A stretch of 31,403 nt of DNA from a virus. The notes under the pieces are model-generated. The model was not told the DNA's origin. It saw only the letters and a list, made by a program, of their open reading frames with translations, and did not search any database. Shown piece by piece: positions 6,413 to 31,286 of the stretch. The translations under genes and the position numbers were made by a program. The stretch is from IMG/VR virus record IMGVR_UViG_3300010885_016477, positions 1 through 31,403 of that record, one strand, 5' to 3'. Each line of letters begins with the position of its first letter. The first letter of the stretch is position 1.

Positions 6413-6453
6413 TTGTTCATGGCAGTACCGGCAATAAATATTGCCATGAACAA
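6413..6453. repeat. 12-bp inverted repeat covering the start codon of the first island gene
   Basis: TTGTTCATGGCA (6413-6424) is the exact reverse complement of TGCCATGAACAA (6442-6453), separated by 17 bases that contain the late-like box. The right arm includes the ATG at 6446-6448. In RNA the start codon would be paired. A smaller nested repeat GGCAAT/ATTGCC (6430-6445) competes with it. There is no Shine-Dalgarno sequence. Confidence 0.8.
6433..6440 (+). promoter_or_regulatory. T4-late-like promoter box of the first island operon
   Basis: AATAAATA matches the TATAAATA late consensus in seven of eight bases. The start of transcription, about six bases beyond, would fall at the ATG at 6446, implying a leaderless mRNA. 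The box sits inside the loop of the inverted repeat 6413-6453. Confidence 0.45.
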
Positions 6454-7183
6454 CATCACAGGTATAGTTAATAGTCCATATATAGATTTACAAAATCATA
6501 TCGACCTAAAATCCTACGACATGCTCCATTCGGAAATATGTCTTGGTTTTTCTAAAGCGTCTCATTTAACAATAAACGGTTCACAAATAATTAATGAAGG
6601 GTCTATTAATCCCGGAAAATTTAAACCGTTATACGAAGCTTATAAAGAACTTCGATCGTTACCTGAATCCGATCCACTTAAACAAGCCGCACAAGGACTT
6701 GATTATAATCAACTAACCACCTATCTAAAATATGCGTTTGGTGGATATGACCTTTACACTCGGCATGTGCTATTTGAAAATTGTACAGAAGAAATAATTT
6801 TAGGTGAAGTAGCCGAATACTTTCCTAATGTAATAAAATGGATCTTGAATTTAAAAGACATTGGTGTTTTTTCAAACATTGACGGTGCTACATTTTTTCT
6901 ATTAGAAGCTGGCGGTGTCCCGTATGAACACTGTGACCCGGCACCGTCACCAGAGTCAGTATCCAGGGTGCCAGAATTTATACATATCAAGACAGATCTC
7001 GATAGACCGTTTTATCTAATTGATCCGCTATCAAAAGAAAAAACCTACATCACAACAAGAGCTGCATGGTGGAATGAAAGAGATTGGCATGGTGGGGAAC
7101 CTATTCTTAAACCTACGTATACATTCAGAGTGGACGGCACGTTTACTAACGAATTTAAAGAAAAGATATTAAAAAATGCTTAA
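6446..7183 (+). CDS. AspH-like 2OG-Fe(II) oxygenase, paralogue 1
   Basis: 245 residues. The C-terminal part carries a double-stranded beta-helix dioxygenase pattern: His162-x-Asp164 (EHCDP), His215 (DWHGG) and Arg228 (TFRVDG), the facial triad plus 2-oxoglutarate arginine. The N-terminal 100 residues form a helical domain shared with the next gene and with 15351-16151, whose recurring motif is NPYIDL..(Y)IDL.SFDKLHPEI.KGFA. The chemistry is probably Fe(II)/2OG hydroxylation; the substrate is unknown. I chose ATG 6446 because it aligns with the sister protein's start; in-frame starts at 6413 and 6419 also exist but none has a ribosome binding site. It overlaps the next gene by eight bases. Confidence 0.78.
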   Translation: MNNITGIVNSPYIDLQNHIDLKSYDMLHSEICLGFSKASHLTINGSQIINEGSINPGKFKPLYEAYKELRSLPESDPLKQAAQGLDYNQLTTYLKYAFGGYDLYTRHVLFENCTEEIILGEVAEYFPNVIKWILNLKDIGVFSNIDGATFFLLEAGGVPYEHCDPAPSPESVSRVPEFIHIKTDLDRPFYLIDPLSKEKTYITTRAAWWNERDWHGGEPILKPTYTFRVDGTFTNEFKEKILKNA

Positions 7184-7937
7184 GGGAATATTTGGAAACC
7201 CATACATAGACCTGTCAACCTATATAGATCTTACAAGTTTTGACAAATTGCATCCTGAAATATGCAAAGGGTTTGCAGTAGCTAGAGATATGGCTGCGGT
7301 TGGCAGTGTTGATGTTCCAGAAGGATTTATGAATTTAAAGGTGTACAACGATCAATTTAAACCATTGTATGTAGCGTATAACGATCTTTTAAATTTATCA
7401 GATGATAACCCTATAAAAATTAATGGTAAAGAGTTAAAGGACAACGAATTATCTACCTATCTAAAATTTGCAATGGGTGCATACGATCTGTATTCATTTT
7501 ATGTGCTTTATGATTTTAAAGATGGTTGGAGAGAGGACGAAACAATACGGGGAAGGCAAGGAATAGCTGATTATTTTCCAGCTGTTATTTCCTGGATCGA
7601 TAGTCTTGTAGAGAACAAAGTTTTTTCTCATATTGGTCGTGCTACTTTTTTTGTACAAGAAGCAGGTGGCATTTCTTTTGAGCACAAGGACCCATCGGTT
7701 GATCCTGAATACCCGGACGTGCCTAGCGAATTTATACACCTGAGTCCTTCTTTAGATAGACCGTTTTATGTTCGTGATTTTGAGACGGAAGAAAAAACTT
7801 ACATACGCACTAGAGCCGGTTATTGGAATGATCAAGACTACCACGGCGGAGATCCTGTAATGAAGCCTACATATTCACTTAGAATAGATGGCAGGTTTAC
7901 TGACGAATTTAAAGCAAAAATAAAAAATGGATTATAA
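7176..7937 (+). CDS. AspH-like 2OG-Fe(II) oxygenase, paralogue 2
   Basis: 253 residues, a tandem relative of the preceding protein. The shared N-terminal helical domain is NPYIDLSTYIDLTSFDKL, followed by GAYDLY near residue 101, and then the dioxygenase half. The triad is His170-x-Asp172 (FEHKDP), His223 (DYHGG) and Arg236 (SLRIDG). The aromatic box WN.QDYHGG matches WNERDWHGG in paralogue 1. It is probably an Fe(II)- and 2-oxoglutarate-dependent hydroxylase. The gene overlaps both neighbours (ATG inside the previous stop region; stop 11 bases beyond the next start). The pair arose by duplication and has diverged well beyond simple redundancy, which suggests two successive or alternative substrates. 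Confidence 0.78.
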   Translation: MLKGIFGNPYIDLSTYIDLTSFDKLHPEICKGFAVARDMAAVGSVDVPEGFMNLKVYNDQFKPLYVAYNDLLNLSDDNPIKINGKELKDNELSTYLKFAMGAYDLYSFYVLYDFKDGWREDETIRGRQGIADYFPAVISWIDSLVENKVFSHIGRATFFVQEAGGISFEHKDPSVDPEYPDVPSEFIHLSPSLDRPFYVRDFETEEKTYIRTRAGYWNDQDYHGGDPVMKPTYSLRIDGRFTDEFKAKIKNGL

Positions 7938-8487
7938 AATTATATGTACAGGTAATCCTAATACCGCAGGAATACCTAACGCTATCAGTAAACAATTTCC
8001 AGACACGACATTTATTTCTTTGACGTTGGGCTATGATCTTGTGTCTGAAGAAGGGCAGAACAAATTCAAAGATATAATTAAAAATTTCAATGTCTTTATC
8101 AATGTTGCCCAATTATCAGACGGCGCTCAAGAAAAACTTTTAAAAATAGCATACGCATCGGGTATGCAAGGACATGTGTTTAATATAGGAAGCATAGCGG
8201 AATACAAACGATGGGAATGGTACGATGCAGATTATACTGCCGAAAAAAGAAGTTTACGAGAAACCAGTTTAGAACTGTGTACTGAATTTTTTAAAACTAC
8301 TCACATAGTAACTGGTGGCTTTCAAGATGCAACTTCTGATCATCCAGATAGAATGGATCCCGTGGAAATTGTCAATGCTATACAATATGTGTTAAGTTCA
8401 AAAGTAAATATTCCTATCATCGGGATAGAAAAAATAAATGACATTGAAATGCAAAAACAATTAAAGGTACAACATGGTAAATTATAA
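7927..8487 (+). CDS. Short-chain dehydrogenase/epimerase-like protein
   Basis: 186 residues with a small Rossmann fold. The N-terminus has a degenerate dinucleotide motif (CTGNPNTAGIPNAI, residues 7-20) after strand YKIICTG. VFINVAQLSD (56-65) recalls the NAG strand, NIGS (86-89) supplies the catalytic serine, and Tyr103-x-x-x-Lys107 (DYTAEK) gives the YxxxK dyad. It would oxidise or reduce a hydroxyl or carbonyl with NAD(P)H. It is shorter than most SDRs (about 250) and lacks a clear substrate domain after residue 150. It lies between oxygenases, so it may act on the hydroxylated product. The start overlaps the previous gene by 11 bases, and the end overlaps the TauD-like gene by 14. Confidence 0.75.
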   Translation: MDYKIICTGNPNTAGIPNAISKQFPDTTFISLTLGYDLVSEEGQNKFKDIIKNFNVFINVAQLSDGAQEKLLKIAYASGMQGHVFNIGSIAEYKRWEWYDADYTAEKRSLRETSLELCTEFFKTTHIVTGGFQDATSDHPDRMDPVEIVNAIQYVLSSKVNIPIIGIEKINDIEMQKQLKVQHGKL

Positions 8488-9331
8488 AATACACGATAAC
8501 GGTTGGACAGTGATGTTAGAAGATTTTGATTTTAAAACAGCCACACAAGAAGATATTAATCACATAGCAAGACTGTTAGCAACAAACACCTTGGTTATTG
8601 CTCGCAAACAAAATCTTACAATTCAGGATGAAATCCGAGTTGAGAATATGTTTAAAGATCCCCAGCGATTTTACCACGACGACGAAACCAGTCCAGACTA
8701 TAATTTTAAAGGTGCTGAGATTCCAGAAGCAGATCGATATCTATTACGTGTAACTGCTGAATTGAACGAAGAAGGCTTAACTGGCATTGCAGGACACGAA
8801 AGTGAAATGCATTGGCATGCTAATGATCAAACAACTCCACATAGAAAATCTTTGGTGTGGTTGTACGGTGTTAAAGGCACTAAAGGATCTCGAACCAGCT
8901 GGAACAACAACATCATGGCTTATGAAAGTTTAGACGAAGATAAACGCAAGCCTTTAGAAAATTTAAAACTTACAGTATTAAAGAATGTTTCACTTAGAGA
9001 AGATCAAGCCGACGGCACTGATAAGATAGAAGATTACTGTCCAAATTTAGTAATGGAAAACATTGCAGGCAAAAAAGGATTTTATTTTCCGTTTTTACAA
9101 ATATCAGGATTTGAAGGATTAAGCGATGAAGAGAGTAAAGAAATAATCTCTTGGTTATCTGAGTATACCATACAAGATAAATTTTGCTATCATCACGATT
9201 GGGAAGACGGTGATGTTATTATTACTGAGCAATGGTTGGGTATTCATAAACGTTGGCCATTTAAAGAAATAGAAAAGCGCCTACTACATCGCGGCGCTTT
9301 TGAATTCCCAGATCAAGATTATAAAAGTTAA
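8474..9331 (+). CDS. TauD/TfdA-family 2OG dioxygenase with HxN motif, paralogue 1
   Basis: 285 residues. A typical TauD layout is visible: an N-terminal QEDINHIARLLATNTLVIARKQN segment, the metal motif WHAN (His115-x-Asn117), WLYGVKGTKGSRTSWNNN (129-146), the distal His258 in GIHKRW, and Arg273 in LHRGAF. The canonical first motif is HxD; here it is HxN, in this protein and in its paralogue at 13459-14313. Asn is a poor metal ligand, so iron binding may use a neighbouring residue (Asp118) or the enzyme may have altered chemistry. The family otherwise hydroxylates small acids using Fe(II) and 2-oxoglutarate. It ends in a convergent overlap with the next minus-strand gene (sharing TTAA at 9328-9331). 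Confidence 0.85.
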   Translation: MVNYKIHDNGWTVMLEDFDFKTATQEDINHIARLLATNTLVIARKQNLTIQDEIRVENMFKDPQRFYHDDETSPDYNFKGAEIPEADRYLLRVTAELNEEGLTGIAGHESEMHWHANDQTTPHRKSLVWLYGVKGTKGSRTSWNNNIMAYESLDEDKRKPLENLKLTVLKNVSLREDQADGTDKIEDYCPNLVMENIAGKKGFYFPFLQISGFEGLSDEESKEIISWLSEYTIQDKFCYHHDWEDGDVIITEQWLGIHKRWPFKEIEKRLLHRGAFEFPDQDYKS

Positions 9332-9975
9332 GGCAGTTCGTCAATAACAATATATTCGCCAGTAATACCTTGTTTGACTGCTGCATCTTCAATTAACTGT
9401 TTCCATTCATCTAATCCATCGTGTCTTGCAATAATTATATGCATACGATCTTCGTTGCTTTCATTAATTACTGAATGATGGTAATGTAAATTCATAGCAT
9501 ACACACCGCCTTCTTCCATAATTAATTCTTCACCGTCACCCCATATCCATTTACAGCCTACAGGATTGTTAAGAGCAACATTTATATTTTCAATCAGTTT
9601 CATTCTAGAATCACTGTGCAATTCTATTCTGCCCCCAGCACGTAACAGCATAAATCTAACACGCCCATAGGTCTTGCAAGGAAACACTTCCTTAAGCCAT
9701 TTGGTTGTCACTGGACACAAGTCTGCTATTTCAGTCCATATCATATCCTTGCTGGCATCTTTACCTTTTTTGTATCCGTAGGTATCGTAGTTCTCGTGCT
9801 TATCCCAACCCAATCCGTGTAGTGTTAGACTTTCCCAACCATTGTGTCCATATTCTCCTGCACGATGAGGAGAAAATTTATCTATAAGTGCAAACGCTTC
9901 AGCAAGCATTTCTTTGTAAGGTAACGGTATGTCTAGTTTTAAATATCTGCCTTCGGATTGATAATAGTCTCTCAT
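9328..9975 (-). CDS. AspH-like 2OG-Fe(II) oxygenase
   Basis: 215 residues of the aspartyl/asparaginyl beta-hydroxylase type. Motifs are RFMLLRAGGRIELHSDSR (107-124) with His120-x-Asp122, NPVGCKWIWGDGEE (137-150), then YHHSVINES with His166/167, and Arg177 in DRMHIII. Fe(II)/2OG hydroxylation is expected. An N-terminal extension of about 90 residues rich in aromatics (HGLGWDKHENYDTYGY) may hold the substrate. I place the start at the ATG overlapping the upstream stop (ATGA, 9975-9972) with AAGGA eight bases ahead; an in-frame start at 10044 would overlap the previous gene by 73 bases. It is the last gene of the 13390-9328 block and meets the plus-strand TauD-like gene at its 3' end. Confidence 0.85.
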   Translation of the reverse strand: MRDYYQSEGRYLKLDIPLPYKEMLAEAFALIDKFSPHRAGEYGHNGWESLTLHGLGWDKHENYDTYGYKKGKDASKDMIWTEIADLCPVTTKWLKEVFPCKTYGRVRFMLLRAGGRIELHSDSRMKLIENINVALNNPVGCKWIWGDGEELIMEEGGVYAMNLHYHHSVINESNEDRMHIIIARHDGLDEWKQLIEDAAVKQGITGEYIVIDELP

Positions 9976-11423
9976 GATAAAATCCTTACTTCTCCAGTTA
10001 ATGGGCAATAACTTTTCCAGTTTTCTTTTTGCCATGGCGGACAATTGAATTCGTTTATGTCAGACAGGGCAAAATCAGATACTTTTCCAAAATAGATTTT
10101 TTCAGTATCTTCTAATTTTGTGTTGTATATGTAACCTAATCTAGTTGGTATATGCAGCCAAATGTCTGGATTTATTTTTTTCAAATTAGTAATCAATGCA
10201 TTCTCTCTTGCCACTCTAAAATTAACAGGAGAAAAATGTGCATACGGAACATGATTAAATGCATCGCTTACATTTACCAATGTAGTTTCATTGGGACTAA
10301 TATAATCGAAATTATTATTAGAAAAGAAATCAGTCAGCACAAAATTAAATTTTAACTGTTTAACTTTATTCCATGTTTCTTGAAAATTTTCAAATTCCTT
10401 TTCAAATTTTACAAACCATTCTCGTATTCTGCGTTCGTGGGTAACTAAATCTAATTGATAGTTGTTAGGTACAAATTTTAATTGCTTCATGTAAAATGAT
10501 GCATAGTCTGTACCGTCCCATTCTTCTACCATAGCTTTCATGAAACTTAGCACAGGATAACTAATATCCATGAAAGTTAATTTTGTATTTTCGTGATAGC
10601 CTAGTCTAGTTATATTGTGTACCCAATTTAACCCTGTCCCCGTAGTGACAAAATGGTCTAATGTATTTCCAGGCACAGCAATGTGTTTAGGTAGCGTGTC
10701 GCTGTTCCATGGTGTAACCATAGTGTTGCAAATCAACGAGTATCCAAACAGCAAAGGAGCATGAGGTTCTCTAAAAAATGTGTGATTATATTCGTAATAC
10801 AGATATTTTTTTCCGTTACGGATCTTATCGCCTACATCACAAAAAATTGCATGGTTCTTCAACCCAGTCTCAATAAGATTCCAACCGTGGCGTTTATGTT
10901 TATAAATTCTTTCAGTTGTTCCTTCTTTGACCCATACAGGAATTTCTGTATCTTCACGAACACATTCGTCACTGCGCAACGGCTCTATTTTAGTATGTTC
11001 TTCATTCCAAGAAACTTGCCCTATCTCAGGACATCCTATTCTTTTGTATTCTTCTAAATTTACAATAAAAAATTGATTGTGTATTTCATAGTATGCATCA
11101 TTTCTGTCTAAAATATGACCGGCCACAGTAAAATGTTCTTTGCATTTTTCTTCAACTGAATTAATAATATTTTCGGACAGCGTAGGATGGGTTCCTGTAA
11201 TCACAAAAACTGCATGAGAATAAAAATCATCAGATGTGACTCGCTTTAATAATTTGTCACTATCGTCATCAATGATAATATCGTTTCCACTGTTTATAAC
11301 AAGTGAAAGAAAATAGTCGCTGACATTTCTAGCTACTTCTTTAGAATAAGTGCCGGCCTGATTTTCAATATTATCTAAGATACAATAAACTATTTTATTT
11401 TTGTGGTTAACAACGTAATCCAT
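9972..11423 (-). CDS. Large protein of unknown function with methyltransferase-like segment
   Basis: 483 residues. I do not recognise the full-length family. Residues 1-110 look like an alpha/beta nucleotide-sugar or nucleotide-binding domain (IVYCILDN, AVFVITGTHPTL). A middle stretch is rich in aromatics (HGWNLIETGLKNHAIF). From about residue 265, PGNTLDHFVTTGTGLNWV and LTFMDISYPVLSFM resemble motifs I and II of class I S-adenosylmethionine methyltransferases. The C-terminus has PTRLGYIYNT and CPPWQKENW. The sequence is soluble and lacks signal peptide or membrane helices. It lies between the PP-loop ATPase and an AspH-like oxygenase and overlaps the latter (ATGA). It may be a two-domain enzyme that modifies the island's product; the role is not readable. 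Confidence 0.6.
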   Translation of the reverse strand: MDYVVNHKNKIVYCILDNIENQAGTYSKEVARNVSDYFLSLVINSGNDIIIDDDSDKLLKRVTSDDFYSHAVFVITGTHPTLSENIINSVEEKCKEHFTVAGHILDRNDAYYEIHNQFFIVNLEEYKRIGCPEIGQVSWNEEHTKIEPLRSDECVREDTEIPVWVKEGTTERIYKHKRHGWNLIETGLKNHAIFCDVGDKIRNGKKYLYYEYNHTFFREPHAPLLFGYSLICNTMVTPWNSDTLPKHIAVPGNTLDHFVTTGTGLNWVHNITRLGYHENTKLTFMDISYPVLSFMKAMVEEWDGTDYASFYMKQLKFVPNNYQLDLVTHERRIREWFVKFEKEFENFQETWNKVKQLKFNFVLTDFFSNNNFDYISPNETTLVNVSDAFNHVPYAHFSPVNFRVARENALITNLKKINPDIWLHIPTRLGYIYNTKLEDTEKIYFGKVSDFALSDINEFNCPPWQKENWKSYCPLTGEVRILS

Positions 11424-11439: not shown

Positions 11440-12165
11440 TTAAACATAGCCAAACGCCCATATTCTTTCTCTACACCACCAGCACTCTCCGCAATGCGAC
11501 TCAGGGTGATTATCATTTTCGCAACTTCGTGTAACAGGAAGCAAACTGTGTTCAACGTCTAGTGTTCTATATATTCTTGCTATGTCTTTTTTATCGTGAT
11601 TGAAGAAAGGAATATAAGCACGTTCGTCTATTGATAGTTTATCAACTACCCTGCCATCGGTAGTAAGAGGAACTTCTGAAAAACTTGTTGCCAAAGCAAC
11701 TGGAATACTAAATCCAAACAATGGATGTTCTTCTTCTGCTGCCCTAAATTTGTTATGCCAATCGGGTTGCTGGTTAGGCCATTTTGACAGTTCTTCTAAT
11801 GGAGGAAATTTAGTCAATCCCAAATAAACGATATCGACTTCTTTTTTATCTAGTGCTGCGGTTAACATGTTAATATAGAATTCTGCAGACTCGTCGGGAT
11901 CTACATAAGTTTTATGTACTGTATAATTAACATTACCTGTAAGTTTAGAGCAGGTTGCAACTACATCATCAAAATGTTTTTCTAAAATCGGCCTACGATA
12001 TTCAGCCATCATGTTATAGATATGTATGTGAGTTTTGATATTTGACATCAGTATGTATAATACCGCCGCACTATCAGCACCACAACTAACTCCTACACCG
12101 ACTGGGCCGTCTTGATACAGTCCTATTTTAATTCCGTCAATATCGATATAATTTAAATTTACCAT
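11440..12165 (-). CDS. QueC-like PP-loop ATPase with zinc motif
   Basis: 241 residues. The N-terminal P-loop VGVGVSCGADSAAVLYIL (residues 22-39) matches the PP-loop SGGxDS signature of ATP-pyrophosphatases, with Cys28 replacing the first Gly. The C-terminal cysteine cluster Cys215, Cys225, Cys228, Cys231 (HCGECWWCRERIWAFG) is the zinc site of QueC, the enzyme that converts 7-carboxy-7-deazaguanine to preQ0 by ATP-driven amidation/dehydration. The rest is divergent. No QueD, FolE or QueE gene is in the window, so a deazaguanine role is uncertain; related adenylation-amidation chemistry on another acid is possible. It overlaps the GNAT-like gene by seven bases. Confidence 0.75.
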   Translation of the reverse strand: MVNLNYIDIDGIKIGLYQDGPVGVGVSCGADSAAVLYILMSNIKTHIHIYNMMAEYRRPILEKHFDDVVATCSKLTGNVNYTVHKTYVDPDESAEFYINMLTAALDKKEVDIVYLGLTKFPPLEELSKWPNQQPDWHNKFRAAEEEHPLFGFSIPVALATSFSEVPLTTDGRVVDKLSIDERAYIPFFNHDKKDIARIYRTLDVEHSLLPVTRSCENDNHPESHCGECWWCRERIWAFGYV

Positions 12166-12710
12166 TTTTTATACTTTGCAAGTTCTTCTAAAAATTTCGT
12201 CGGGTATAATTCCCAAATAGTTTGCTCTGTGCCACGGTACATCATTTCTCTAATGCGCAGCATTTGTCCGGTAGCTTCCATAGCTGGTCCAAATATACGA
12301 TGAACAAGTCGCTGTGTCCCTACATCACTTTCATTACTGGTTATAAACAGCCTACTACCCTTAGGCACCCATTCAATACAGGCTGGAATCAAAAATTGAC
12401 TAGTGGCATGTTGATGAGTTACAATTTGATTGCGAGTACGTAGTGTATCCATGGGCAACATATCGCTGAATACACAAGTACGTGCGGCGATGCGATAGCA
12501 GTTATCTCCCATCTCTGGAAAACTATGTGCGCCTACACTACCCACGGCTTTATCGTTGTAATAAAGAATCCACACGCACCATTCTTTTTCTTTTGCTAAA
12601 CTATCTACTAGCATCTTTTGACTGGCGTTGTTTACAAAACCTCGATTTTTGGCCTGTTCGTAGAAAGAAGATAAATCTAAATCTGGAGACCAGGGTATTA
12701 TTTTATACAT
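12159..12710 (-). CDS. GNAT-like acyltransferase
   Basis: 183 residues with a GNAT-type core. The segment WCVWILYYNDKAVGSVGAHSFPE (about 44-66) fits strands 2-4 of the N-acetyltransferase fold, YRIAARTCVF (72-81) follows, and the usual R/Q-x-x-G-x-G/A acyl-CoA loop is not obvious. The second half has IEWVPKGSRLFITSN (113-127) as the beta-5-like strand. The protein ends KKW. It would transfer an acyl group from acyl-CoA to an amine or hydroxyl if the fold is right. Confidence is limited by the absence of the acetyl-CoA loop. It overlaps both neighbours, the kinase-like gene upstream and the PP-loop ATPase downstream. Confidence 0.5.
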   Translation of the reverse strand: MYKIIPWSPDLDLSSFYEQAKNRGFVNNASQKMLVDSLAKEKEWCVWILYYNDKAVGSVGAHSFPEMGDNCYRIAARTCVFSDMLPMDTLRTRNQIVTHQHATSQFLIPACIEWVPKGSRLFITSNESDVGTQRLVHRIFGPAMEATGQMLRIREMMYRGTEQTIWELYPTKFLEELAKYKKW

Positions 12711-13390
12711 TCTTTTACACGCTCAATAAAGTCTTCAGGATAGTTTGTTCTAAAACTTTCCCAACACAACTGATCCATGACCTCCCACGGTTGTGGCGTG
12801 TTCCATTCTATACCTAATCTATCTAAATGCTTACGCATTTCAGCCTGTCTGTTTGAGTGTATATGACTTTCAACATCTTGTATAGTAACCCAGGGTTCAG
12901 TTGTACGATATGTAAAAAAATAATTGATGCTTTTAAGGCGACCGTCTACTACAAAATAACTGCTAGGGTGCATACTATATTTGTGTAACCCTAGACTCTT
13001 GTGAGCTCGAATTATGTCTAGCATTTGTTCCTGCCAGTCGGGAAGTACTTTGTCAAAATTTGCTTTATTGCATCCTGCTTGTTCCCAAAAGTCAGGACCT
13101 TCTATTTCTAAAAATAATCTTTGTTTATCTAATTCTATATTAATAATTTTTGGAACTAAATCTGGAAACGCATTACGCATCTGTGTAAGGTAGTTAACTT
13201 CACGTAACCATTTCTCCTGCATGAGTAATGGATCAACAACTTGATTTTTTCCTTGATGATACTCGCTGTCGTTATGGTACCATTGGCAGAATGTTTTTTT
13301 ATCTTTGCTGATTAGGCTTGTATAAATTAAATTGTTTCTGCTTGGACTTTCGCCCGGAACGTTGTTATAGTAATACTCGAAGTCTAGCAC
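12698..13390 (-). CDS. Degenerate protein-kinase-like/phosphotransferase-like protein 1
   Basis: 230 residues beginning at GTG 13390 after GAGGAAAA. The order of features recalls a small kinase or aminoglycoside-phosphotransferase fold. A helix EKWLREVNYLTQMRNAFPDLVPKI (about 59-82) resembles the C-helix, followed by LFLEIEGPDF as a hinge, LPDWQEQMLDIIRAHKSLGLHKYSMHP (116-142) and FVVDGRLKSINYFF (146-159). The last segment occupies the place of the catalytic loop and the DFG strand, but neither HxD nor DFG is intact. A sister protein lies at 18823-19512 with the same LPxWxxQ and HPxxFxxxxGxLKxIxYxx pattern. It may be a pseudokinase or a carrier-like partner of the adjacent enzymes. Confidence 0.6.
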   Translation of the reverse strand: MLDFEYYYNNVPGESPSRNNLIYTSLISKDKKTFCQWYHNDSEYHQGKNQVVDPLLMQEKWLREVNYLTQMRNAFPDLVPKIINIELDKQRLFLEIEGPDFWEQAGCNKANFDKVLPDWQEQMLDIIRAHKSLGLHKYSMHPSSYFVVDGRLKSINYFFTYRTTEPWVTIQDVESHIHSNRQAEMRKHLDRLGIEWNTPQPWEVMDQLCWESFRTNYPEDFIERVKECIK

Positions 13391-13420: not shown

Positions 13421-13428
13421 CATAAATA
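13421..13428 (+). promoter_or_regulatory. T4-late-like promoter box of the second plus-strand block
   Basis: CATAAATA matches TATAAATA in seven of eight bases. It lies in the 68-base divergent gap between 13390 and 13459. A leader of about 25 bases with GGAG leads to ATG 13459. On the minus strand of the same gap only a weak ATAAATTA-like match is visible near 13410. Confidence 0.55.
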
Positions 13429-15364: not shown

Positions 15365-16151
15365 TAATAAACCATATTATGATATGACGCCATATTTAGA
15401 TATGGATCAATTTGATAAACTACAGCCCGAGATACTAACAGGGTTTGCTTTAGCACGACACTATGCTAAAGAAGGTACATGGATGAAACCGGGTTTCACT
15501 TTTGATGATATGAGCTATAAACTTAGTTGGAAACCTATCTACCAATCTATGGATGAGTTTATGGAACTACCTAAAGACGATCCTATATATCAAGCAGGCA
15601 TGGCCCTAATGCCTAAGAATTTTAAAAACTTTCAAGAACGTAATGTGTTTACACGTTTTTTAAAAATGGCCATGGGTGCATACGATCCATACATTTATTA
15701 TTATTTGTGGGAAGAAGGCTCATGGGATGACAGAACTGCTAAACGTAACTTGACACCTGAAGCAGAATATTTTCCTAATGTAGTTAAGTGGGTTGAAAGT
15801 CTAGTAGGTACAGTGTTTGAAGACATTGGTCGTGTTATATTCTTTCATTGCGAAGCAGACGGCATCCCATTTGAGCATAGAGACTTAGATGCTAATAATG
15901 GTATCGATATTGTCAGGCCACACCGTAATGAATTTATACATATACGTCCTAATACCAAGAAAGCCATGTACTTATGGGACCCAGAGACTAAAGACAAAAC
16001 TTATCTAAACACTCGAGCTGCTTGGTGGAATGATGTAGACTGGCATGGTGGGGAGAAGATCATGGAACAAAGTTATGGCTTACGCATTGACGGAAAATTT
16101 ACAGAAGAATTCCGTAAGACACTAGGTATCGATCACATAGAGGCATACTAA
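15351..16151 (+). CDS. AspH-like 2OG-Fe(II) oxygenase, paralogue 3
   Basis: 266 residues; third copy of the family at 6446-7183 and 7176-7937. The shared N-terminal motif is KPYYDMTPYLDMDQFDKL and GFALARHYAK. The dioxygenase triad is His176-x-Asp178 (FEHRDL), His232 (DWHGG) and Arg245 (GLRIDG). It is longer in the middle, with an extra loop around GTWMKPGFTFDDMSY (43-57). AGGA stands ahead of the ATG. It is expected to hydroxylate with Fe(II)/2OG. It lies directly behind a radical SAM gene and two bases ahead of another oxygenase, so the block combines three oxygenases of this fold plus a TauD-like enzyme. Confidence 0.82.
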   Translation: MHGINNKPYYDMTPYLDMDQFDKLQPEILTGFALARHYAKEGTWMKPGFTFDDMSYKLSWKPIYQSMDEFMELPKDDPIYQAGMALMPKNFKNFQERNVFTRFLKMAMGAYDPYIYYYLWEEGSWDDRTAKRNLTPEAEYFPNVVKWVESLVGTVFEDIGRVIFFHCEADGIPFEHRDLDANNGIDIVRPHRNEFIHIRPNTKKAMYLWDPETKDKTYLNTRAAWWNDVDWHGGEKIMEQSYGLRIDGKFTEEFRKTLGIDHIEAY

Positions 16152-21750: not shown

Positions 21751-21754
21751 TTTC

Positions 21755-24738: not shown

Positions 24739-25704
24739 GTGTGTCTCTGGAATACAACTACAGCAGGTTATTTGACATTTTGATTGTTTGAATTCTGGAT
24801 CAAACAAATTAATAAAATTACTATCTAACATATTATATCTTTGATCAAACAGCGTCTGTCCACAAGCACCTTGTATTATGCCATCCCAATTTACATAGAT
24901 AGAATCTAATCCAATGTTACAATTCCAACCTGTAAAGTCAGTCCACCCATGATTGATATATGTGTTTGACGTTGCCATCACTGGCAGAGTTTTATCTTCT
25001 AACCATACAGCACTTTCAAATATCTTTATAGATCCGTCAAATATTAAGTTGTAATTTTTTAAAAACCAAGTTAGATTAGGCAATCTTTTTAATTCTTTAG
25101 ACATATACTGCTTTTGCAATTTAGTATAGGGAAGATATCCTACAACTTCTTTAGCAAGGACGAACCAAGGATGTTTGCTAGATGCCTTCATGTATTCAAC
25201 AGCAGCAACACATTCGTCCCATCTGGTTGGATCCATTAATACTAATACAGTTACTTTTTTGTTTAAAGCGTACAGCGTGTCAGCAACTTCGATCATGTGA
25301 TCAATATTACTTTCTTTTACATGATGCGACAATGTTGCATTGTCAATTAAATGACCATTGTCTTTCCACCAGCGTAATGTTCGTGACCCGTTTGATGTAA
25401 CGCTTACATAAACATCATTTGATTTTTTTATTTCTAAAATAAACTTATCTAAGTCTTTCCATACAGTGGGTTCACCGCCGCCTATGTCTAAATGAAATTT
25501 AGTTTTTCCTAGTTTAGTAGTGTACTCTTTAAACAGATGTTGAAAATTAGCAATTACAACATCGGTGTTAACCGGTGATTTAAAATTTCCTTCGTTAGAA
25601 CCTGGGAAACAATAATCGCATTTGAAGTTGCACACATTACTTGGACTCCAACGTACATTTAAAATATTGGGTTTAGAAAGAGATTTTATTTTAATCGGTT
25701 TCAT
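24718..25704 (-). CDS. Radical SAM enzyme B2
   Basis: 328 residues. Cys25-x3-Cys29-x2-Cys32 (VCNFKCDYC) with FPGSNEGN after it, DIGGGEPTVWKD (74-85), VTSNGSRTLRWW (102-113), and the C-terminal cysteine set (GWNCNIGLDSIYVNWDG, ACGQTLFDQ, CQITCCSCIPETHLTK). It is a paralogue of 23842-24738, placed tail to tail with it. The radical SAM core is complete, and the late cysteines suggest an auxiliary cluster. It overlaps the upstream twitch-type gene by four bases (ATGA) and is the last gene of the seven-gene minus block. Substrate unknown. Confidence 0.88.
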   Translation of the reverse strand: MKPIKIKSLSKPNILNVRWSPSNVCNFKCDYCFPGSNEGNFKSPVNTDVVIANFQHLFKEYTTKLGKTKFHLDIGGGEPTVWKDLDKFILEIKKSNDVYVSVTSNGSRTLRWWKDNGHLIDNATLSHHVKESNIDHMIEVADTLYALNKKVTVLVLMDPTRWDECVAAVEYMKASSKHPWFVLAKEVVGYLPYTKLQKQYMSKELKRLPNLTWFLKNYNLIFDGSIKIFESAVWLEDKTLPVMATSNTYINHGWTDFTGWNCNIGLDSIYVNWDGIIQGACGQTLFDQRYNMLDSNFINLFDPEFKQSKCQITCCSCIPETHLTKSLS

Positions 25705-27086
25705 AAAATATGTTCTAGTTCAGGAAACACCGATTTGGCGCTCATGTGTCGAATTGAATCTAAATTAACAACGTATTCTTTAAAGTCTGGCAGTAGGTGT
25801 GTGTGATCTTCTGCTTGAATAAATTTTAAAATGCCTTCCCAACGTTTCCAACCGTATGGATTGTCTTTCCAGAAGTTGTCGTCTTGTCTATAATTGTCCC
25901 ATAACCATTGTTTAAAGTCTGCAAACTGTTGTACAATTTCATCCTTGTCTGCTTGTGGTAAAATCCTAGCACTTAGAAATGTAGGAATGTATAACAAATG
26001 TAGGTTAATGATTCCGCCGCCAGTTTCGTATTCGTCAAGTGCAAATTTATTAATCTTTTTAAATCCTTGACTCAGTTTCCATTTGGCAAAATCAATGATA
26101 TGTTTAACGTTAAACACCTGCACTGCGCAGGCTATTGCACAATGTATGTTATCGGGAGCATTATCCATTAACCAAAGACTGCGTTCAATGTCTGCCCAGT
26201 CTGTAGGATAACGAATATAATTGTTTCTTTCCATCACAGCATCAATACTAAATGCATATCGTACCTGTTTAAACTGACTCCATACATTGATGATGTCGTC
26301 GTTAACAAATATTCCATTACTGTTATATCGTAGGCTAATATTTTTAGCATAACCACGTTTGATAATTTCATCTAAGAACCGTCTATGTTCTTTAATCATC
26401 AACGGCTCACCACCTGCAAAGTATAACTGTGTTATGTTTGGTATTTGCTCAAACACATCATCCCAGAACTCTGGTTTTTCATACCAAGTATTATTGAATT
26501 CGGCTTTGTCAAATCCTACTTGTTTTAATACAATAGTGCTTTTTGTTTTTGCAATTAGTTTATCGTAGTCTTGCAACCAACGACTACTGTCATGCGGACT
26601 ACACATAACGCATTTTAAATTACAAGTATGCCCAAGTCTTAAATCCAAGTATCGTATAACAGGAGGAACAGCACCAGTTAGATCAGTGTCTGCAATAAGT
26701 TTATTAAAATCTAATCCATCACGATTCCATTCGTACATTTCCCAAAGACGTTTGCTTACAACTCCGTTAGCTTCTTCTTCAAAGCATTTAGTACAACTTG
26801 CTGGTATCTTTCCTTCTAGCATTGTTGTACGTACACTACGCATATACTGATTGTTAAATGCTTCTAATGGTGTTTCTCTTCCAAAGTTTGCCGGAGTACC
26901 ATCTTCTTTCTTGACCAGTCCTACTGCATAGTCGCCGGTGTGAGCTCCGCTGGCATTTGTAACACAACAAAGCCTAGCATCCCCATTGGGTCTAGTTGCT
27001 AGATGTATCCAAGGTAAAGCACAAAAGGTCGGTGAGCCTGTTCGTTCTTCAATTATCTTAATGTAAGTTTTAATTTTATTAGTCAT
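25701..27086 (-). CDS. Twitch-domain radical SAM enzyme 2
   Basis: 461 residues, the layout of 22587-23849. The N-terminal domain has Cys22 (FCALPWIHLA), Cys40-Cys41 (RLCCVT), LEAFNNQYMRSVRTTMLEG (74-92) and Cys98-x2-Cys101. The radical SAM motif is Cys155-x3-Cys159-x2-Cys162 (TCNLKCVMC), followed by YFAGGEPLMIKEHRR about 225-239, and SIDAVMERNNYIRYP about 290. Compared with paralogue 1 it has extra residues in the linker (108-140). It overlaps the SGNH-like gene upstream by eight bases. A radical modification is expected; the twin copies in opposite blocks recall the twinned kinase-like and oxygenase genes. Confidence 0.9.
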   Translation of the reverse strand: MTNKIKTYIKIIEERTGSPTFCALPWIHLATRPNGDARLCCVTNASGAHTGDYAVGLVKKEDGTPANFGRETPLEAFNNQYMRSVRTTMLEGKIPASCTKCFEEEANGVVSKRLWEMYEWNRDGLDFNKLIADTDLTGAVPPVIRYLDLRLGHTCNLKCVMCSPHDSSRWLQDYDKLIAKTKSTIVLKQVGFDKAEFNNTWYEKPEFWDDVFEQIPNITQLYFAGGEPLMIKEHRRFLDEIIKRGYAKNISLRYNSNGIFVNDDIINVWSQFKQVRYAFSIDAVMERNNYIRYPTDWADIERSLWLMDNAPDNIHCAIACAVQVFNVKHIIDFAKWKLSQGFKKINKFALDEYETGGGIINLHLLYIPTFLSARILPQADKDEIVQQFADFKQWLWDNYRQDDNFWKDNPYGWKRWEGILKFIQAEDHTHLLPDFKEYVVNLDSIRHMSAKSVFPELEHIL

Positions 27087-27885
27087 TATTCCACATCACC
27101 GAAATATCATTAGAGTAGTTTAAAATTTTTCCATCCTCGTATTCATCTATAGCATTTTTAATAAATTGAAATACCATAGTATTTTTAACGCCTTCTAGAT
27201 GATTTGGCCTATCATCTATTTTAGGATATTGAAATGTATTCTGTGCATCACCTGCTATGCTTAGACTATTAAGGGCTGGTCTAATTTCAACACCGTGTTT
27301 CCAATTATAGTTATAGGTAATACTGTTAGGATGAAATCCATCAAAGTCCCAAGACTTGGGATTACCAAATGCCCAAAAATGAATAATTTTTGTAGAAGAA
27401 GGAAATGTAGACAATACATTATTGTCAATATATTCTAAAATGGCTCGATGTTCAATCTCTTCTTTTTCTTGATCATACAGATATAGATAAAACTGTTTAG
27501 CAGCTTCCCATAAATCTTTAGTAAACGGATTTGTTTTTCCGGGATACTCTGTTTCAAACCATTTTTCTTTTTCTGGTCTATGTCCAGCAATGCCAGAGCT
27601 TGCGTGAATTGACCTAGCAGTTCTATTGAATAGTCGTCCTGAGTTGGTCCACACAAATACGCACACATCTGGAATTGACTGAGATGCGATTAATGGCTGC
27701 AATTGAATTAACAATGCATCCCAAACAGATGAACCTCCGTAGCCAAGATTAACTATATTGGCGTTGTAATAATCTCTTGTCTGTTCGATATAGGTTTGAT
27801 ATCCGTGTTCTATGCTGTGCGGATTATTCAATTTTGTACAAAAGCTATCACCAAAAAAGCCAACGGTTTTTATTTTGTCCTGCAT
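27079..27885 (-). CDS. SGNH-hydrolase-like protein 1
   Basis: 268 residues. Block I is GFFGDSFC (residues 9-16) with Ser14 as nucleophile, block II is VNLGYGGSSVWDAL (about 45-58) with its glycine, block III is VFVWTNSGRLFN with Asn, and block V is DDRPNHLEG with Asp225 and His229. All four SGNH elements can thus be read. Family members hydrolyse or transfer acyl groups, such as O-acetyl groups on sugars or lipids. No signal peptide is present, so it works inside the cell. The gene meets its upstream neighbour at TAATG and overlaps the twitch-type gene downstream. A second SGNH-like protein lies two genes upstream (29551-30309). Confidence 0.75.
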   Translation of the reverse strand: MQDKIKTVGFFGDSFCTKLNNPHSIEHGYQTYIEQTRDYYNANIVNLGYGGSSVWDALLIQLQPLIASQSIPDVCVFVWTNSGRLFNRTARSIHASSGIAGHRPEKEKWFETEYPGKTNPFTKDLWEAAKQFYLYLYDQEKEEIEHRAILEYIDNNVLSTFPSSTKIIHFWAFGNPKSWDFDGFHPNSITYNYNWKHGVEIRPALNSLSIAGDAQNTFQYPKIDDRPNHLEGVKNTMVFQFIKNAIDEYEDGKILNYSNDISVMWNND

Positions 27886-28970
27886 TAAAAAACGTCCAAG
27901 TCTAAAAATTGATCTCTACACTGACTTACTTCTACCTTGGTAAACTTACCGCAGACTCTTGCACACATGATAACCGACTTGTCTTCAAACCCTTTGTTCC
28001 AAACAGTTTGCCAAGCTTCACTGTTAATAAGCTCTTTAATAGGATGTTTGTTTAAATTTAATCCTTCTATGCCGCCAAATGCTTCTAAGGCAGCAGTTAA
28101 ACTTTCTTTGCTGTGTGTCATAAAATCCCAAACTAATTTGTTGGGTCTAGAATACTGATAGGGAACACTGGCTAAGAAACAGCAGGGCCACGCATATCCT
28201 TGAGAATCAATGTATAAACTTTTTGTTTCTTCAACTTCACAACTCACTGTACAGCTTGCAATTGCTTCTTTATAATTTTCAACAGTTTTTCTATCTATGA
28301 ATGCTATCTTCTTTTCAGTTGGTGATTCTAATTTATAAGCAACATTGCCACTGCTATCTAATACTTCAAAATATGGATCTCCGATGAACCTACTGGTTTG
28401 TTTTTCGTGAAAACTTTCAAACCCTAGTTCTTTAGCCAACTGCCTAGCAGGCTCTAGTTGATGTTCATTATGCTTAAATGTGATGAAGTTCCAACGTGCT
28501 CGGCCACCTGCTGCAATAAATGATTTAGCGTTGCTGATAATTTTATTAAAATCCGTTCCTATTCTATACAAATGATGTGTATCTTCGAGACCGTCTATAC
28601 CAAACAATACTATATGATTCTCTGGCATGGCTTTTGCCAAATCTCTCCACCAGGACGTGGTTCTTGCGCCACCGTTGGTGTGTACTTGTAAATCAATATT
28701 GGGATTTGATTCAGCAATATGCTCAACAATCTTAACTAGATCTTTATTTAAAATAGGATCACCATAGTTGCCACACAATGAAATAGCATTAACCTGTGCT
28801 ATTAGCTCGCTAGGAACAATAGATTTAAATTTCTTTATATCTAGATTTTTTTCAATTATATTTGGGTTAGGTAAACCGCCGTGCTCGTTCCTAGCGCACA
28901 TTGGGCACTTCGCCTGACATAGGCTAGAAACCTCTAAATGTAATTTTTTTATTTCTTCATACTTGTACAT
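27885..28970 (-). CDS. Radical SAM/SPASM-type enzyme A2
   Basis: 361 residues. Cys18-x3-Cys22-x2-Cys25 (SLCQAKCPMC), ARNEHGGLPNPN, CGNYGDPILNKDL about 66-78, and FGIDGLEDTHHLYRIGTDFN about 123-142. Later cysteines: VSCEVEETKSLYIDSQGYAWPCC and MCARVCGKF near the end. It is clearly homologous along the whole length to 17254-18339 and has the same number of residues. The start ATG overlaps the upstream methyltransferase stop (TAATG); an in-frame start at 29030 would extend into that gene. SPASM-type chemistry on a peptide or small molecule is likely. The substrate is unknown. Confidence 0.88.
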   Translation of the reverse strand: MYKYEEIKKLHLEVSSLCQAKCPMCARNEHGGLPNPNIIEKNLDIKKFKSIVPSELIAQVNAISLCGNYGDPILNKDLVKIVEHIAESNPNIDLQVHTNGGARTTSWWRDLAKAMPENHIVLFGIDGLEDTHHLYRIGTDFNKIISNAKSFIAAGGRARWNFITFKHNEHQLEPARQLAKELGFESFHEKQTSRFIGDPYFEVLDSSGNVAYKLESPTEKKIAFIDRKTVENYKEAIASCTVSCEVEETKSLYIDSQGYAWPCCFLASVPYQYSRPNKLVWDFMTHSKESLTAALEAFGGIEGLNLNKHPIKELINSEAWQTVWNKGFEDKSVIMCARVCGKFTKVEVSQCRDQFLDLDVF

Positions 28971-29560
28971 TATTTTTTTCCAATAATCATCCAACGTGTG
29001 TATAGAGGTAGTTCTAATTCGCCTGCCCATAATACATTAATATTGCTTTGTGTTTTAAATTCTTCAAGGCTTTTTGCTGTTCTAACGTGTTCTGTAATTT
29101 CATAATCGTTACTTTGCAATACTAATAAACTATTTTGAGGTATTCCGCTTAACCACAAATCGTATTGATCCTGAGTTATGTGTTCGCAACTGGTGTTAAT
29201 GATAACGTCCGCATCGCTTCGTAGCTCACACATGTCTGCGGTAACGGCACGAAACTTTCCAACCATTTCTTCAATTTTATTCATGTTGACAGCAATAGGT
29301 TCGCACGTAGGATCAATATCTACGCTACGAATATTCAATACAGGTACATCGCTTTGAAATATCATACTGGCTAACACACCAACCCAACCGCCGTGAATAT
29401 CAATAGTGACAAACTTTTTTACATGCGGACGTAAATTTTTAATTAACCATTCTTTGCTTTTTAATTGACCGCTCCAAAAGGCATCCATAGTTCGCATTGG
29501 CTCGGGACTTTGTCGGATAGCCTGCATCCAATGATGTAGATGTTCAGTGTTTATTTGCAT
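28970..29560 (-). CDS. Class I SAM-dependent methyltransferase-like protein
   Basis: 196 residues. FVTIDIHGGWVGVLASMIF (50-68) holds a motif-I-like loop with GGWxG, SVDIDP (79-84) is the acidic motif II that binds the adenosine ribose, FRAVTADMCEL (103-113) is motif III, and VIINTSCEHIT (119-129) stands in the position of motif IV with NTSCEH in place of DPPY. A small-molecule or protein O/N-methyltransferase is possible. It is compact (196 residues versus 220-300). It overlaps the SGNH-like gene upstream by ten bases and the radical SAM gene downstream through TAATG. Confidence 0.75.
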   Translation of the reverse strand: MQINTEHLHHWMQAIRQSPEPMRTMDAFWSGQLKSKEWLIKNLRPHVKKFVTIDIHGGWVGVLASMIFQSDVPVLNIRSVDIDPTCEPIAVNMNKIEEMVGKFRAVTADMCELRSDADVIINTSCEHITQDQYDLWLSGIPQNSLLVLQSNDYEITEHVRTAKSLEEFKTQSNINVLWAGELELPLYTRWMIIGKK

Positions 29561-30309
29561 AACTGTAATCCTTTCGCTATATCGTTAGCTGCCAATTTTG
29601 CTGATTCGATTCCAGGATGCAATAAATCTCTAGCCTTGTCGAGATTTTTAAAATGCTTACAGCCCAACCATTCATTTGGTCCAGAAAAAGATCCTTCAAA
29701 ATATCTACTTTTGTGTTGCCACAACAGCGTTGCTGTCTTTTGAATAAATGTAGCATTCACTTTGGCATGGTGGCTGTTTTTATTCCACACATCCATAAGA
29801 CTATTAGGTTCCATATTCCAGGAGCCATGATTTTTTATACTGCTGCGATTGTATTCGATCACTCTAGTATAGTCGGGCCAAATGTAAACAACAGCGAACG
29901 GTGTGGGATAACCGTCATCTAGGATAATAGAGTTGTGTAGAGCAAATGTCATAGACGACCCACCTGATCCTAAATTGACCACGGGGCGCCCTGTCATCTC
30001 AGATAATCTACTGCTGATAGTATCTTCATCACTTAGTCCAACACCATAGGCATTAGAGCATCCAAATATCACAATTGATTCCGCCCAATTAATTTTATCA
30101 AACTCGTCTGTTCTATATCCTTGAGAATTATTTTTATAAGTTACCTTATGTGTTCTGTAATACCAATCTTGTGATTGAGCTTTTAAATTTTTTTCAAATG
30201 TTTCTTTTGTGTCAGTTCCGCTCCACGACGGAGAAAGGTAAGTGTCCGTAGGAAGAAATTTATTTTTCCTAACATGATTCAACAAAGGATTAACTGTAAA
30301 AATATTCAT
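29551..30309 (-). CDS. SGNH-hydrolase-like protein 2
   Basis: 252 residues. IVIFGCSNAYGVG (79-91) is block I with GCSN in place of GDSx, so Ser85 remains but Asp is Cys. VVNLGSGGSSMTFALHNS (110-127) is block II. VVYIWPDYTRVIEYN (about 137-151) follows, with block III Asn not obvious. DLLHPGIES with Asp228 and His231 closes the active site. The overall pattern fits an SGNH fold related to 27079-27885, perhaps with altered activity. The first 70 residues are an extra N-terminal part (YRTHKVTYKNNSQGYRTDEF). The start overlaps the upstream radical SAM stop (TAATG). Confidence 0.72.
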   Translation of the reverse strand: MNIFTVNPLLNHVRKNKFLPTDTYLSPSWSGTDTKETFEKNLKAQSQDWYYRTHKVTYKNNSQGYRTDEFDKINWAESIVIFGCSNAYGVGLSDEDTISSRLSEMTGRPVVNLGSGGSSMTFALHNSIILDDGYPTPFAVVYIWPDYTRVIEYNRSSIKNHGSWNMEPNSLMDVWNKNSHHAKVNATFIQKTATLLWQHKSRYFEGSFSGPNEWLGCKHFKNLDKARDLLHPGIESAKLAANDIAKGLQLCK

Positions 30310-31286
30310 TATTTGTTTTTAGGTATTTTCGAATCTGCCGAACTAACACAACTTGGAGTTATACAAAGTTGTGGATTTTTAAAAAGTTCAAACTTATCCA
30401 AAGTTCCCAGTATCTGATCATGACAACTGTATGATCGTTTTACCTCATTACTTCTTATTATAACACTTTGATATCCAGAATTGCAACTCCATCCTTGAAA
30501 TTTGTTAAATCCAAACGCATTAAATCGTTCAGCCTGATCAAAAAGATATTCTTTATTATTGTTATCGTACAGTGCTATTTGGTAAATCTCTTCACCTTGT
30601 GATTTTTGTGGGAATCCCGTCTGCATCAAGTTAATCATTTCTTCTGTGTACCCATCTACAATTCCGCTGGCTGTTGGATCGCTTTGCGGTTTGAGCGTTA
30701 CATTGATTCCACGTTTATGGAATCGTTCTAACCTCTCATATAACTCGTGAAACTTTTCTGGAACCATTACTTGATTAATGGTCACGTGTACTAGTTCGTG
30801 CATCAATTGTAGGCACTTGTCGCCAAACTCCTGTTCTCGGGCAAACTCATCATGAAAGCTGGCTGTAATACTACGACGTTGTAATAATTCAGTATTCTTA
30901 CACCAAGTGTTCCACCATTTTGATCCAGGCGACAAATTGGTAGTCATGTGTATGCTTTGGTATGTGCTTTCTGTTTCATCTAGATGTTTAACCAAATCAT
31001 TCAATTGTTTGTAAGCAGTAGGTTCACCTCCGCTGAAACTCCAATGGAATTGATTAAATCCATTTAGTCGAGCTTGTCTTTTAATTTCGTCTATGGCGTT
31101 AGTATAAACTTCAAATGATTGATAGTCCATTTTGTCGCTACGGGCATAAGGCCAACAATAGCTACAATTGTAATTACAAAATCTTCCCAATATCCAACTA
31201 GTGGAGAACAATGGACGACTTAACATCGTGCGTTGTCCAAAACGTACAATGTTTTGAAATGGTATTGTTTGAAAATTGGATATCAT
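30309..31286 (-). CDS. Radical SAM enzyme B3
   Basis: 325 residues. Cys37-x3-Cys41-x2-Cys44 (FCNYNCSYC) with WPYARSDK after it, HWSFSGGEPTAYKQ (83-96), IHMTTNLSPGSKWW about 113-126, and a C-terminal set (GWSCNSGYQSVIIRSN, YSCHDQILG, LCITPSCVSSADS) of auxiliary-cluster-type cysteines. It shares its family with 23842-24738 and 24718-25704. The late-like box GTTAAATA ends ten bases before the ATG and no Shine-Dalgarno sequence is visible. It is the first gene of the seven-gene minus block and meets the SGNH-like gene downstream at TAATG. Confidence 0.88.
   Translation of the reverse strand: MISNFQTIPFQNIVRFGQRTMLSRPLFSTSWILGRFCNYNCSYCWPYARSDKMDYQSFEVYTNAIDEIKRQARLNGFNQFHWSFSGGEPTAYKQLNDLVKHLDETESTYQSIHMTTNLSPGSKWWNTWCKNTELLQRRSITASFHDEFAREQEFGDKCLQLMHELVHVTINQVMVPEKFHELYERLERFHKRGINVTLKPQSDPTASGIVDGYTEEMINLMQTGFPQKSQGEEIYQIALYDNNNKEYLFDQAERFNAFGFNKFQGWSCNSGYQSVIIRSNEVKRSYSCHDQILGTLDKFELFKNPQLCITPSCVSSADSKIPKNK

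Follow-up and report, generated by a model that had tools for sequence, protein, structure and literature searches.

Positions 6413 to 31286 of the IMG/VR virus record IMGVR_UViG_3300010885_016477 form a 24.9-kb phage island with nine radical S-adenosylmethionine (rSAM) enzymes and ten 2-oxoglutarate (2OG)-type oxygenases, and most of this rSAM/oxygenase set recurs as a group in hundreds of related phage contigs. The window, by which we mean the whole stretch of DNA analyzed, is the complete record, a linear fragment of 31,403 bases. Within it the island consists of 29 genes in six blocks of alternating strand. The reading we favor, to which we give a little under an even chance, is that the island is a modular, probably late-expressed cluster that makes a surface glycan or glycoconjugate or modifies one and lies in the host-recognition (tail-fiber) region of a T4-like phage.

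A first-pass annotation of this DNA had proposed that the density of such enzymes reflects a dedicated pathway. We searched IMG/VR with three anchor genes: the rSAM gene rS7 had 129 relatives, the methyltransferase-like gene MT at least 591, and the oxygenase gene O3 438. Gene content was then counted in 29 loci anchored on MT (15 kb or longer), 61 anchored on O3 (18 kb or longer), and 40 anchored on rS7. Around MT, rS9 was present in 27 of the 29 loci, followed by rS8 (26), rS7 and rS5 (22 each), and rS4 (19). The kinase-like gene K1 was found in all 61 O3-anchored loci, and most of them also had the GNAT-like gene and the second kinase-like gene, K2 (57 each), the oxygenase genes O4 (50) and AspH4 (49), and the rSAM genes rS1 (48), rS4 (47), and rS3 (44). 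Their median content was five rSAM and seven 2OG genes per locus of about 20 kb. Because the MT and O3 anchors are opposite ends of the cluster, a locus of this length shows one half of it better than the other. Gene order is mostly retained across relatives, with inversions and swaps. The co-occurrence with three different anchors supports the proposal of a dedicated, conserved pathway; scattered, independent acquisitions of single genes are not what the related contigs show.

Other members of the cluster are less constant, namely, TauD1, TauD2, U483, the QueC-like gene at 11440, and the SDR and SGNH genes. Another QueC-like gene lies between rS4 and the gene for the pyridoxal phosphate (PLP)-dependent enzyme in several relatives, and 30 of the 40 rS7-anchored loci have a member of its family. 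The island is a kept core with changing TauD, SGNH, U483, QueC, and other genes, not one fixed pathway. Unrelated auxiliary genes gathered in a recombination hotspot, with no common pathway, would also give accessory genes that differ between phages and patchy identities, and a hypervariable region is known at this place in T4-like phages. We consider this explanation improbable, because core co-occurrence is 75 to 100% with independent anchors and because several core genes recur together in bacteria, as described below. Among catalogued phages, there are no relatives of O1, U483, MT, or K1, and none carries the core; rS7, rS8, and rS9 gave remote rSAM matches only.

Some relatives carry further genes beside the core. 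Amidinotransferase-like genes occur in seven to nine loci per relative set, with PF02274 matches below the cut-off, and there are none in the window. In G003 (L097:14535-16100 and neighbors), a natural-product-like accessory block beside the core holds tryptophan-halogenase-family, class III aminotransferase, amidinotransferase-like, SAM-decarboxylase-like, and B12-rSAM genes. Near a related cluster, the phage contig G009 encodes a RuBisCO-like protein (L126:2540-3769; PF00016, E 1e-43), whose gene stands in a run with 3-dehydroquinate-synthase-family, kinase-like, cupin-like, and nucleotidyl transferase genes.

The core also has bacterial counterparts. A search of a genome collection with MT returned 135 bacterial relatives, and we analyzed the best 80 of the 135, which are 33 to 43% identical. 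Most of these 80 belong to Rhizobiales, and their kept neighbors include the glycosyltransferase (GT) families GT28 and GT1 and an ABC exporter, each family being present in 42 to 47 of the 80 loci. In seven bacterial loci, rSAM core homologs stand alongside MT. Six Bdellovibrio-like genomes have an rS9 of about 50% identity, and the islands of this type share a partial core of rS7, rS8, rS9, MT, the PLP enzyme, the short-chain dehydrogenase/reductase (SDR), and an ATP pyrophosphatase. On a 1.62-Mb contig (L375), the order is rS7 (46% identity), rS9 (48%), a protein with a DxD motif, a GNAT-like protein, the PLP enzyme (33%), rS8 (34%), and the SDR (28%), and about 4 kb from this core lie Polysacc_synt_2, a Bac_transf sugar transferase, an epimerase, and a GT1 gene. 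A second locus (L374) runs from an N_Twi-like rSAM gene and the PLP gene through rS9, rS7, rS8, the ATP pyrophosphatase, the DxD protein, and MT to a GT2 gene; a third (L338) has GT2 genes on either flank. The DxD protein, with a conserved VDGDN, is present in five of the seven bacterial loci, and its motif and context suggest that it may be a glycosyltransferase. Two loci, L351 and L376, were left out of the chromosomal evidence because they may be misbinned or integrated phage. In L376 (contig G091 C21), the rS7, rS9, and DxD genes adjoin bacterial trmD/rimM/pheST-like genes and a phage-like gene; this may be an integrated element that bears the core.

Because the set recurs grouped, and partly beside sugar-coat genes in the chromosomes of predatory bacteria, it probably serves a glycan or glycoconjugate pathway. 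The first-pass annotation had offered four candidate products: a glycan or lipid on the virion, a modified tail protein, a nucleotide derivative, and a small molecule. Bacterial neighborhoods with polysaccharide and GT genes, together with a GT-A-like domain in U483, make a glycan or lipid the best supported of these, although this would still be a deduction from gene context.

The count of nine rSAM enzymes in the first-pass annotation held up. All nine proteins match PF04055, eight of them above the curated cut-off, with best E values per gene from 1e-18 to 5e-8. The remaining one, rS2, scores 27.5 bits against a cut-off of 29.5 and is 37% identical to rS8. Two proteins, rS4 and rS7, belong to the N_Twi_rSAM family (NF033640), defined here by a full-length match over the curated cut-off of 170 bits plus the rSAM motif; both match over their full length and far above the cut-off (343 and 381 bits), with the motifs CNLKCRMC and CNLKCVMC, respectively. 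The description of this family's model assigns no reaction. rS1 has partial similarity to Tes/TrsS. The true starts of rS2 and rS8 are probably internal to the called starts. Each line below opens with the start position in the window.

14306..15364, plus strand: rS1, rSAM with N-terminal HMPTM zinc ribbon (PF04055 E 2.5e-16, PF23545 E 1.3e-13)
17254..18402, minus strand: rS2, rSAM, paralog of rS8 (PF04055 E 4.7e-6)
19512..21053, minus strand: rS3, B12-binding rSAM (PF04055 E 2.2e-11, PF02310 E 5e-4; PhpK family sub-threshold)
22587..23849, plus strand: rS4, N_Twi_rSAM, core
23842..24738, plus strand: rS5, rSAM, core (PF04055 E 1.7e-14)
24718..25704, minus strand: rS6, rSAM (PF04055 E 3.6e-11)
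25701..27086, minus strand: rS7, N_Twi_rSAM, core
27885..29030, minus strand: rS8, rSAM/SPASM-like, core (PF04055 E 3.9e-11; PF13186 sub-threshold)
30309..31286, minus strand: rS9, rSAM, core (PF04055 E 4.5e-11)

The count of ten oxygenases with HxD or HxN motifs was also right: two TauD-like proteins, AspH1 to AspH4, and O1 to O4, all with the metal motif. We took as defining features of a 2OG-Fe(II) oxygenase the double-stranded beta-helix, the HxD/E...H facial triad, and an Arg/Lys anchor for 2OG. By these, O3 is assigned from its model and invariant residues, AspH1 and AspH2 from Pfam, and O1 and O2 through homology to O3. The three proteins O1, O2, and O3 are paralogs (38 to 49% identity; O1 is 49% identical to O2 and 38% to O3) with no match in Pfam or PHROG. 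The AlphaFold2 (AF2) model of O3 has a pLDDT of 90, and every best fold match in the PDB is a 2OG oxygenase, including PHD2 (Z 11.0, rmsd 3.6, 170 aligned); H176, D178, and H232 are invariant in the O3 alignment. AspH4 is related to AspH2 by profile-profile comparison (E 1.6e-7). The weakest two of the ten are AspH3 and O4: their HxD and distal His are invariant and they match a beta-hydroxylase profile at E 1e-3, with a 45% probability in the profile comparison to AspH2. AspH3 is often duplicated in relatives. AspH1 probably starts internally as well, its closest relative being 215 amino acids long.

6413..7183, plus strand: O1, 2OG oxygenase of a new family (HxD...H...R; identity to O2 and O3)
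7176..7937, plus strand: O2, 2OG oxygenase of the O1/O3 family (paralogy)
8474..9331, plus strand: TauD1-like oxygenase, HxN (PF02668 E 2e-18)
9328..10044, minus strand: AspH1, 2OG oxygenase (PF05118 E 1.2e-12)
13459..14313, plus strand: TauD2-like oxygenase, HxN (PF02668 E 2.5e-23)
15351..16151, plus strand: O3, 2OG oxygenase, core (AF2 model, fold search, invariant triad)
16153..16746, plus strand: AspH2, 2OG oxygenase (PF05118 E 1.4e-9)
16737..17267, plus strand: AspH3, 2OG-type oxygenase, core (invariant H105, D107, H157)
18339..18833, minus strand: O4, 2OG-type oxygenase, AspH3 paralog (paralogy, conserved motif)
21050..21715, minus strand: AspH4, 2OG oxygenase, core (PF05118 E 4e-4, just below the cut-off; HxD conserved)

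TauD1 and TauD2 are well over the PF02668 cut-off yet carry HxN where the TauD/TfdA family has HxD. Asn is an uncommon residue in the metal triad, and its presence there might alter the reaction. HxN (HCN, HSN, HAN, or HNN) prevails in viral relatives, in 64 of 77 aligned TauD1 matches. Outside the island, an eleventh 2OG-like gene (window 2212-2787; PF13759 below the cut-off) is kept in relatives. It lies between tRNA genes, five of which (Met, Pro, Gly, Arg, and Gly) stand amid small genes upstream of the island at 1184-2951.

The remaining island proteins are harder to place. Family searches found no database family for O1/O2/O3, U483, the GNAT-like protein, K1/K2, MT, or the PLP enzyme, and PDB profile searches with alignments A1, A4, A5, A6, A7, and A9 gave nothing useful. 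Several labels of the first-pass annotation nevertheless stood, among them the SDR and the QueC-like ATPase. The PLP label is weak, with a profile match to an aminotransferase at E 0.018. Methyltransferase and GNAT are readings of motifs with no profile match, for the GNAT-like protein also none in the PDB, and of the two SGNH labels, one has a sub-threshold match and the other none. The kinase-like label is right at the level of fold (profile E 3e-6) and not of catalysis: K1 and K2 have the HRD Asp and the Asn of protein kinases replaced, and a DFG-like Asp is kept in K2 alone. With the catalytic Asp and Asn gone, K1 and K2 still rank among the steadiest members of the cluster. U483 is predicted to have two domains. 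Residues 7-225 of its model match a GT-like accessory domain of LH3 (Z 10.7), with RmlT and PBCV-1 glycosyltransferases at about Z 9, and residues 220-450 match an NNMT-type methyltransferase (Z about 8.9).

7927..8487, plus strand: SDR-like reductase, accessory (28% to the SDR-like gene of L375)
9972..11423, minus strand: U483, GT-A-like and class I methyltransferase-like domains (AF2 pLDDT 76)
11440..12165, minus strand: QueC-like ATP pyrophosphatase with a Cys/His zinc motif (PF06508 E 8e-7)
12159..12710, minus strand: GNAT-like protein of the O3/K1 core, candidate fold (in 57 of 61 O3-anchored loci)
12698..13390, minus strand: K1, protein-kinase-like fold (kinase profile; alignment A3)
18823..19524, minus strand: K2, kinase-like, K1 paralog (paralogy; alignment A3; kinase profile)
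21725..22603, plus strand: PLP-dependent enzyme, presumed fold type I, core (33% to its relative in L375)
27079..27885, minus strand: SGNH1-like, accessory, weak (PF13472 sub-threshold, E 0.006)
28970..29560, minus strand: MT, methyltransferase-like, core (fold by motif reading)
29551..30309, minus strand: SGNH2-like, accessory, label from the first-pass annotation

These 29 genes are packed tightly, with nearly all neighbors overlapping by a few bases and gaps that total 94 bp. We considered a cluster for a ribosomally synthesized and posttranslationally modified peptide with its precursor inside and set it aside, given the overlapping genes and the short gaps; such a precursor could lie elsewhere.

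Related contigs suggest a T4-like carrier. Contigs bearing it reach 85 to 353 kb, and the nearest relative, G006, has matches beyond the cluster to a Thy1-type synthase, an EndoV-like protein, and a baseplate connector. The T4-like identity of the window would rest on its relatives, since T4-type Gp23 was found in 2 of 30 contigs, which are mostly fragments. A gene for a tail protein adjoins the island, and in 19 of 30 contigs its homologs have a PF18454 (Mtd_N) match, most often where the cluster ends; the Mtd_N gene is within a few kilobases of the core in most contigs checked. The tail gene and two operons of the island are preceded by the same late-promoter-like motif.

5120-5127, plus strand: late-promoter-like CATAAATA, 35 nt ahead of the start of the tail gene
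5163..6398, plus strand: tail/receptor-binding-type protein beside the island (sequence start MPLQIRRGTEQQR)
13421..13428, plus strand: late-promoter-like CATAAATA, 30 nt ahead of the start of TauD2
21720..21727, minus strand: late-promoter-like CATAAATA of the AspH4 operon, 4 nt from the called start, conserved in relatives

T4-like cyanophages use NATAAATA as their late promoter (PMC2984593). Across the window and seven related contigs, the 60 bases ahead of genes hold about 20 times as many NATAAATA octamers as expected; AATAAATA, for one, was observed 24 times there against 1.0 expected. In G002, the motif lies ahead of rS1, rS4, AspH4, and several genes of 900 to 2100 residues. The window lacks an exact copy of the T4 late promoter TATAAATA, and the looser NATAAATA fits. 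Since the motif is 4 to 5 nt from the called start of AspH4 in four contigs, the true start of this gene may lie further in. Taken together, the motifs suggest that the island is likely expressed late.

The tail gene brings in the main rival to a glycan pathway, peptidyl modification of the fiber. Here the enzymes would act directly on a protein of the virion, the neighboring tail protein being the simplest candidate, with rSAM/SPASM and AspH/PHD-like proteins hydroxylating, cross-linking, or methylating side chains of the fiber without sugars. The two N_Twi_rSAM and the SPASM-like rSAM proteins would suit this chemistry, and the nearest matches of O3 are PHD2, proline hydroxylases, and AspH. 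The tail gene shares its late-promoter-like motif with the cluster and, as an Mtd_N gene, sits at the cluster end in most contigs. We still think this rather unlikely. The bacterial counterparts adjoin polysaccharide genes and have no tail fiber, the tail gene of G001 is distant, and 94 bp of gaps in 24.9 kb leaves no space for a separate precursor gene. The kind of chemistry suggested by the SDR, PLP, ATP pyrophosphatase, and amidinotransferase-like enzymes is that of small molecules or sugars.

Another rival is that the island makes a diffusible small molecule or a natural product resembling a nucleotide, whose target would be the infected host or competitors. Relatives have tailoring-like genes that speak for it (tryptophan-halogenase family, amidinotransferase-like, class III aminotransferase, 3-dehydroquinate-synthase family, sulfotransferase, and nitroreductase), and a RuBisCO-like protein adjoins one cluster. 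However, neither an enzyme that makes a scaffold (nonribosomal peptide synthetase, polyketide synthase, or terpene synthase) nor an exporter was seen in the window, and the promoter motif is late, not early. We regard this product as quite unlikely. Hypermodification of the phage's own DNA is highly improbable. Enzymes of the rSAM, 2OG, PLP, and GNAT types feature in the pathways of thymidine and cytosine hypermodification, and to that extent the island fits. But canonical PF00303 is present in only three of nine large contigs, with a Thy1-type synthase in others; no DNA-modification kinase was recognized; the enzymes are too many for a base; and the bacterial counterpart is at polysaccharide loci.

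Returning to the glycan pathway, we can sketch how it might run. The PLP enzyme, SDR, ATP pyrophosphatase, and acetyltransferase-like protein would introduce amino, keto, amide, and acyl groups. The oxygen-independent rSAM and oxygen-dependent 2OG enzymes would then hydroxylate, deoxygenate, epimerize, or methylate C-H positions, and methyltransferases would cap the product. Proteins of GT-A type (U483 here, others in relatives) could transfer it, and the end product would decorate the tail fiber or the envelope of the infected cell. What the data show directly is the gene content, its kept grouping, the bacterial counterpart next to polysaccharide genes, and the late-promoter-like motifs; we infer that the substrate is a glycan, in what order the steps run, where the product is attached, and the benefit, which may be receptor recognition, masking, or superinfection exclusion. 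The full version of this scheme, in which multistep C-H functionalization in both oxygen modes, by a core common to rare bacterial surface-glycan islands, makes a novel, heavily modified glycoconjugate that decides the next infection from the virion or the cell, seems to us doubtful.

Several observations weigh against a glycan pathway. Two of the rSAM proteins are twitch/SPASM types, a kind of enzyme whose substrate is often a peptide, and the best structural matches of the O3 model are peptidyl and prolyl hydroxylases. The window itself has no sugar-nucleotide enzyme and no standard glycosyltransferase; the top match of the GT-A part of U483 is the noncatalytic LH3 domain, and U483 is outside the core. 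The DxD protein has no Pfam or PDB match and occurs in only 9 of 40 viral loci in one set and 5 of 29 in another. An rS9 homolog is present in only 6 of 129 genomes of the order that holds a Halobacteriovoraceae genome, and bacterial use of the core appears to be rare and sporadic. Finally, the Mtd_N gene is 30 kb off in contig G001.

Reports of T4-like phages rich in rSAM genes go back to 2010, with no function assigned to these genes. With the core now defined and widespread in uncultured phages, and with bacterial homologs next to polysaccharide genes, a list of auxiliary genes becomes a testable pathway. If our reading is true, phages would offer new chemistry of sugars or peptides, along with a new route to altered surface recognition.

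T4-like phages with rSAM-rich islands are already known, and the first-pass annotation was mistaken in crediting known phages with just one or a few of these genes. The Campylobacter phages CP220 and CPt10 (Firehammervirus, T4-like) have 11 to 12 rSAM genes per genome, and a module of 10 to 12 genes, exchanged between phages, holds five rSAM genes and an amidinotransferase-like gene; NDP-sugar-transferase folds were noted for two genes (PMC2853527). These phages resemble ours in being T4-like and rich in rSAM genes. No 2OG oxygenase is annotated in their module, and the similarity is only remote (24% identity for rS8); a link through glycine amidinotransferase was not borne out at the Pfam cut-off. 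The marine T4-like environmental genome TARA_ERS488813_N000010 has 12 rSAM genes, read as Fe-S metabolism (PMC5332604); compared by description, it differs in that no clustering or 2OG partners are described. We saw no Fe-S assembly gene in the window that would speak for such a role here. The host-recognition cluster of pelagimyophages and cyanomyophages is a large variable island with tail fibers, glycosyltransferases, and rSAM cassettes (PMC7029224). We liken it to ours by content, but its freshwater members are without rSAM genes and a 2OG/rSAM core is not described. That type of cluster sits between VrlC and gp14; here, a tail gene and a baseplate-connector match are nearby, and VrlC and gp14 were not located. 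The Bdellovibrio-like islands (L374, L375, and L338) share rS7, rS8, rS9, the PLP enzyme, and in part MT, the SDR, and the ATP pyrophosphatase. They differ in having the DxD gene, in adjoining polysaccharide genes, and in being without O3, K1/K2, TauD, rS1, and rS3. A limited search of open-access full text found no published function for them. Against the literature found in that search, what is new in our island is the large 2OG set, the defined core, its breadth among phages, and its bacterial counterpart.

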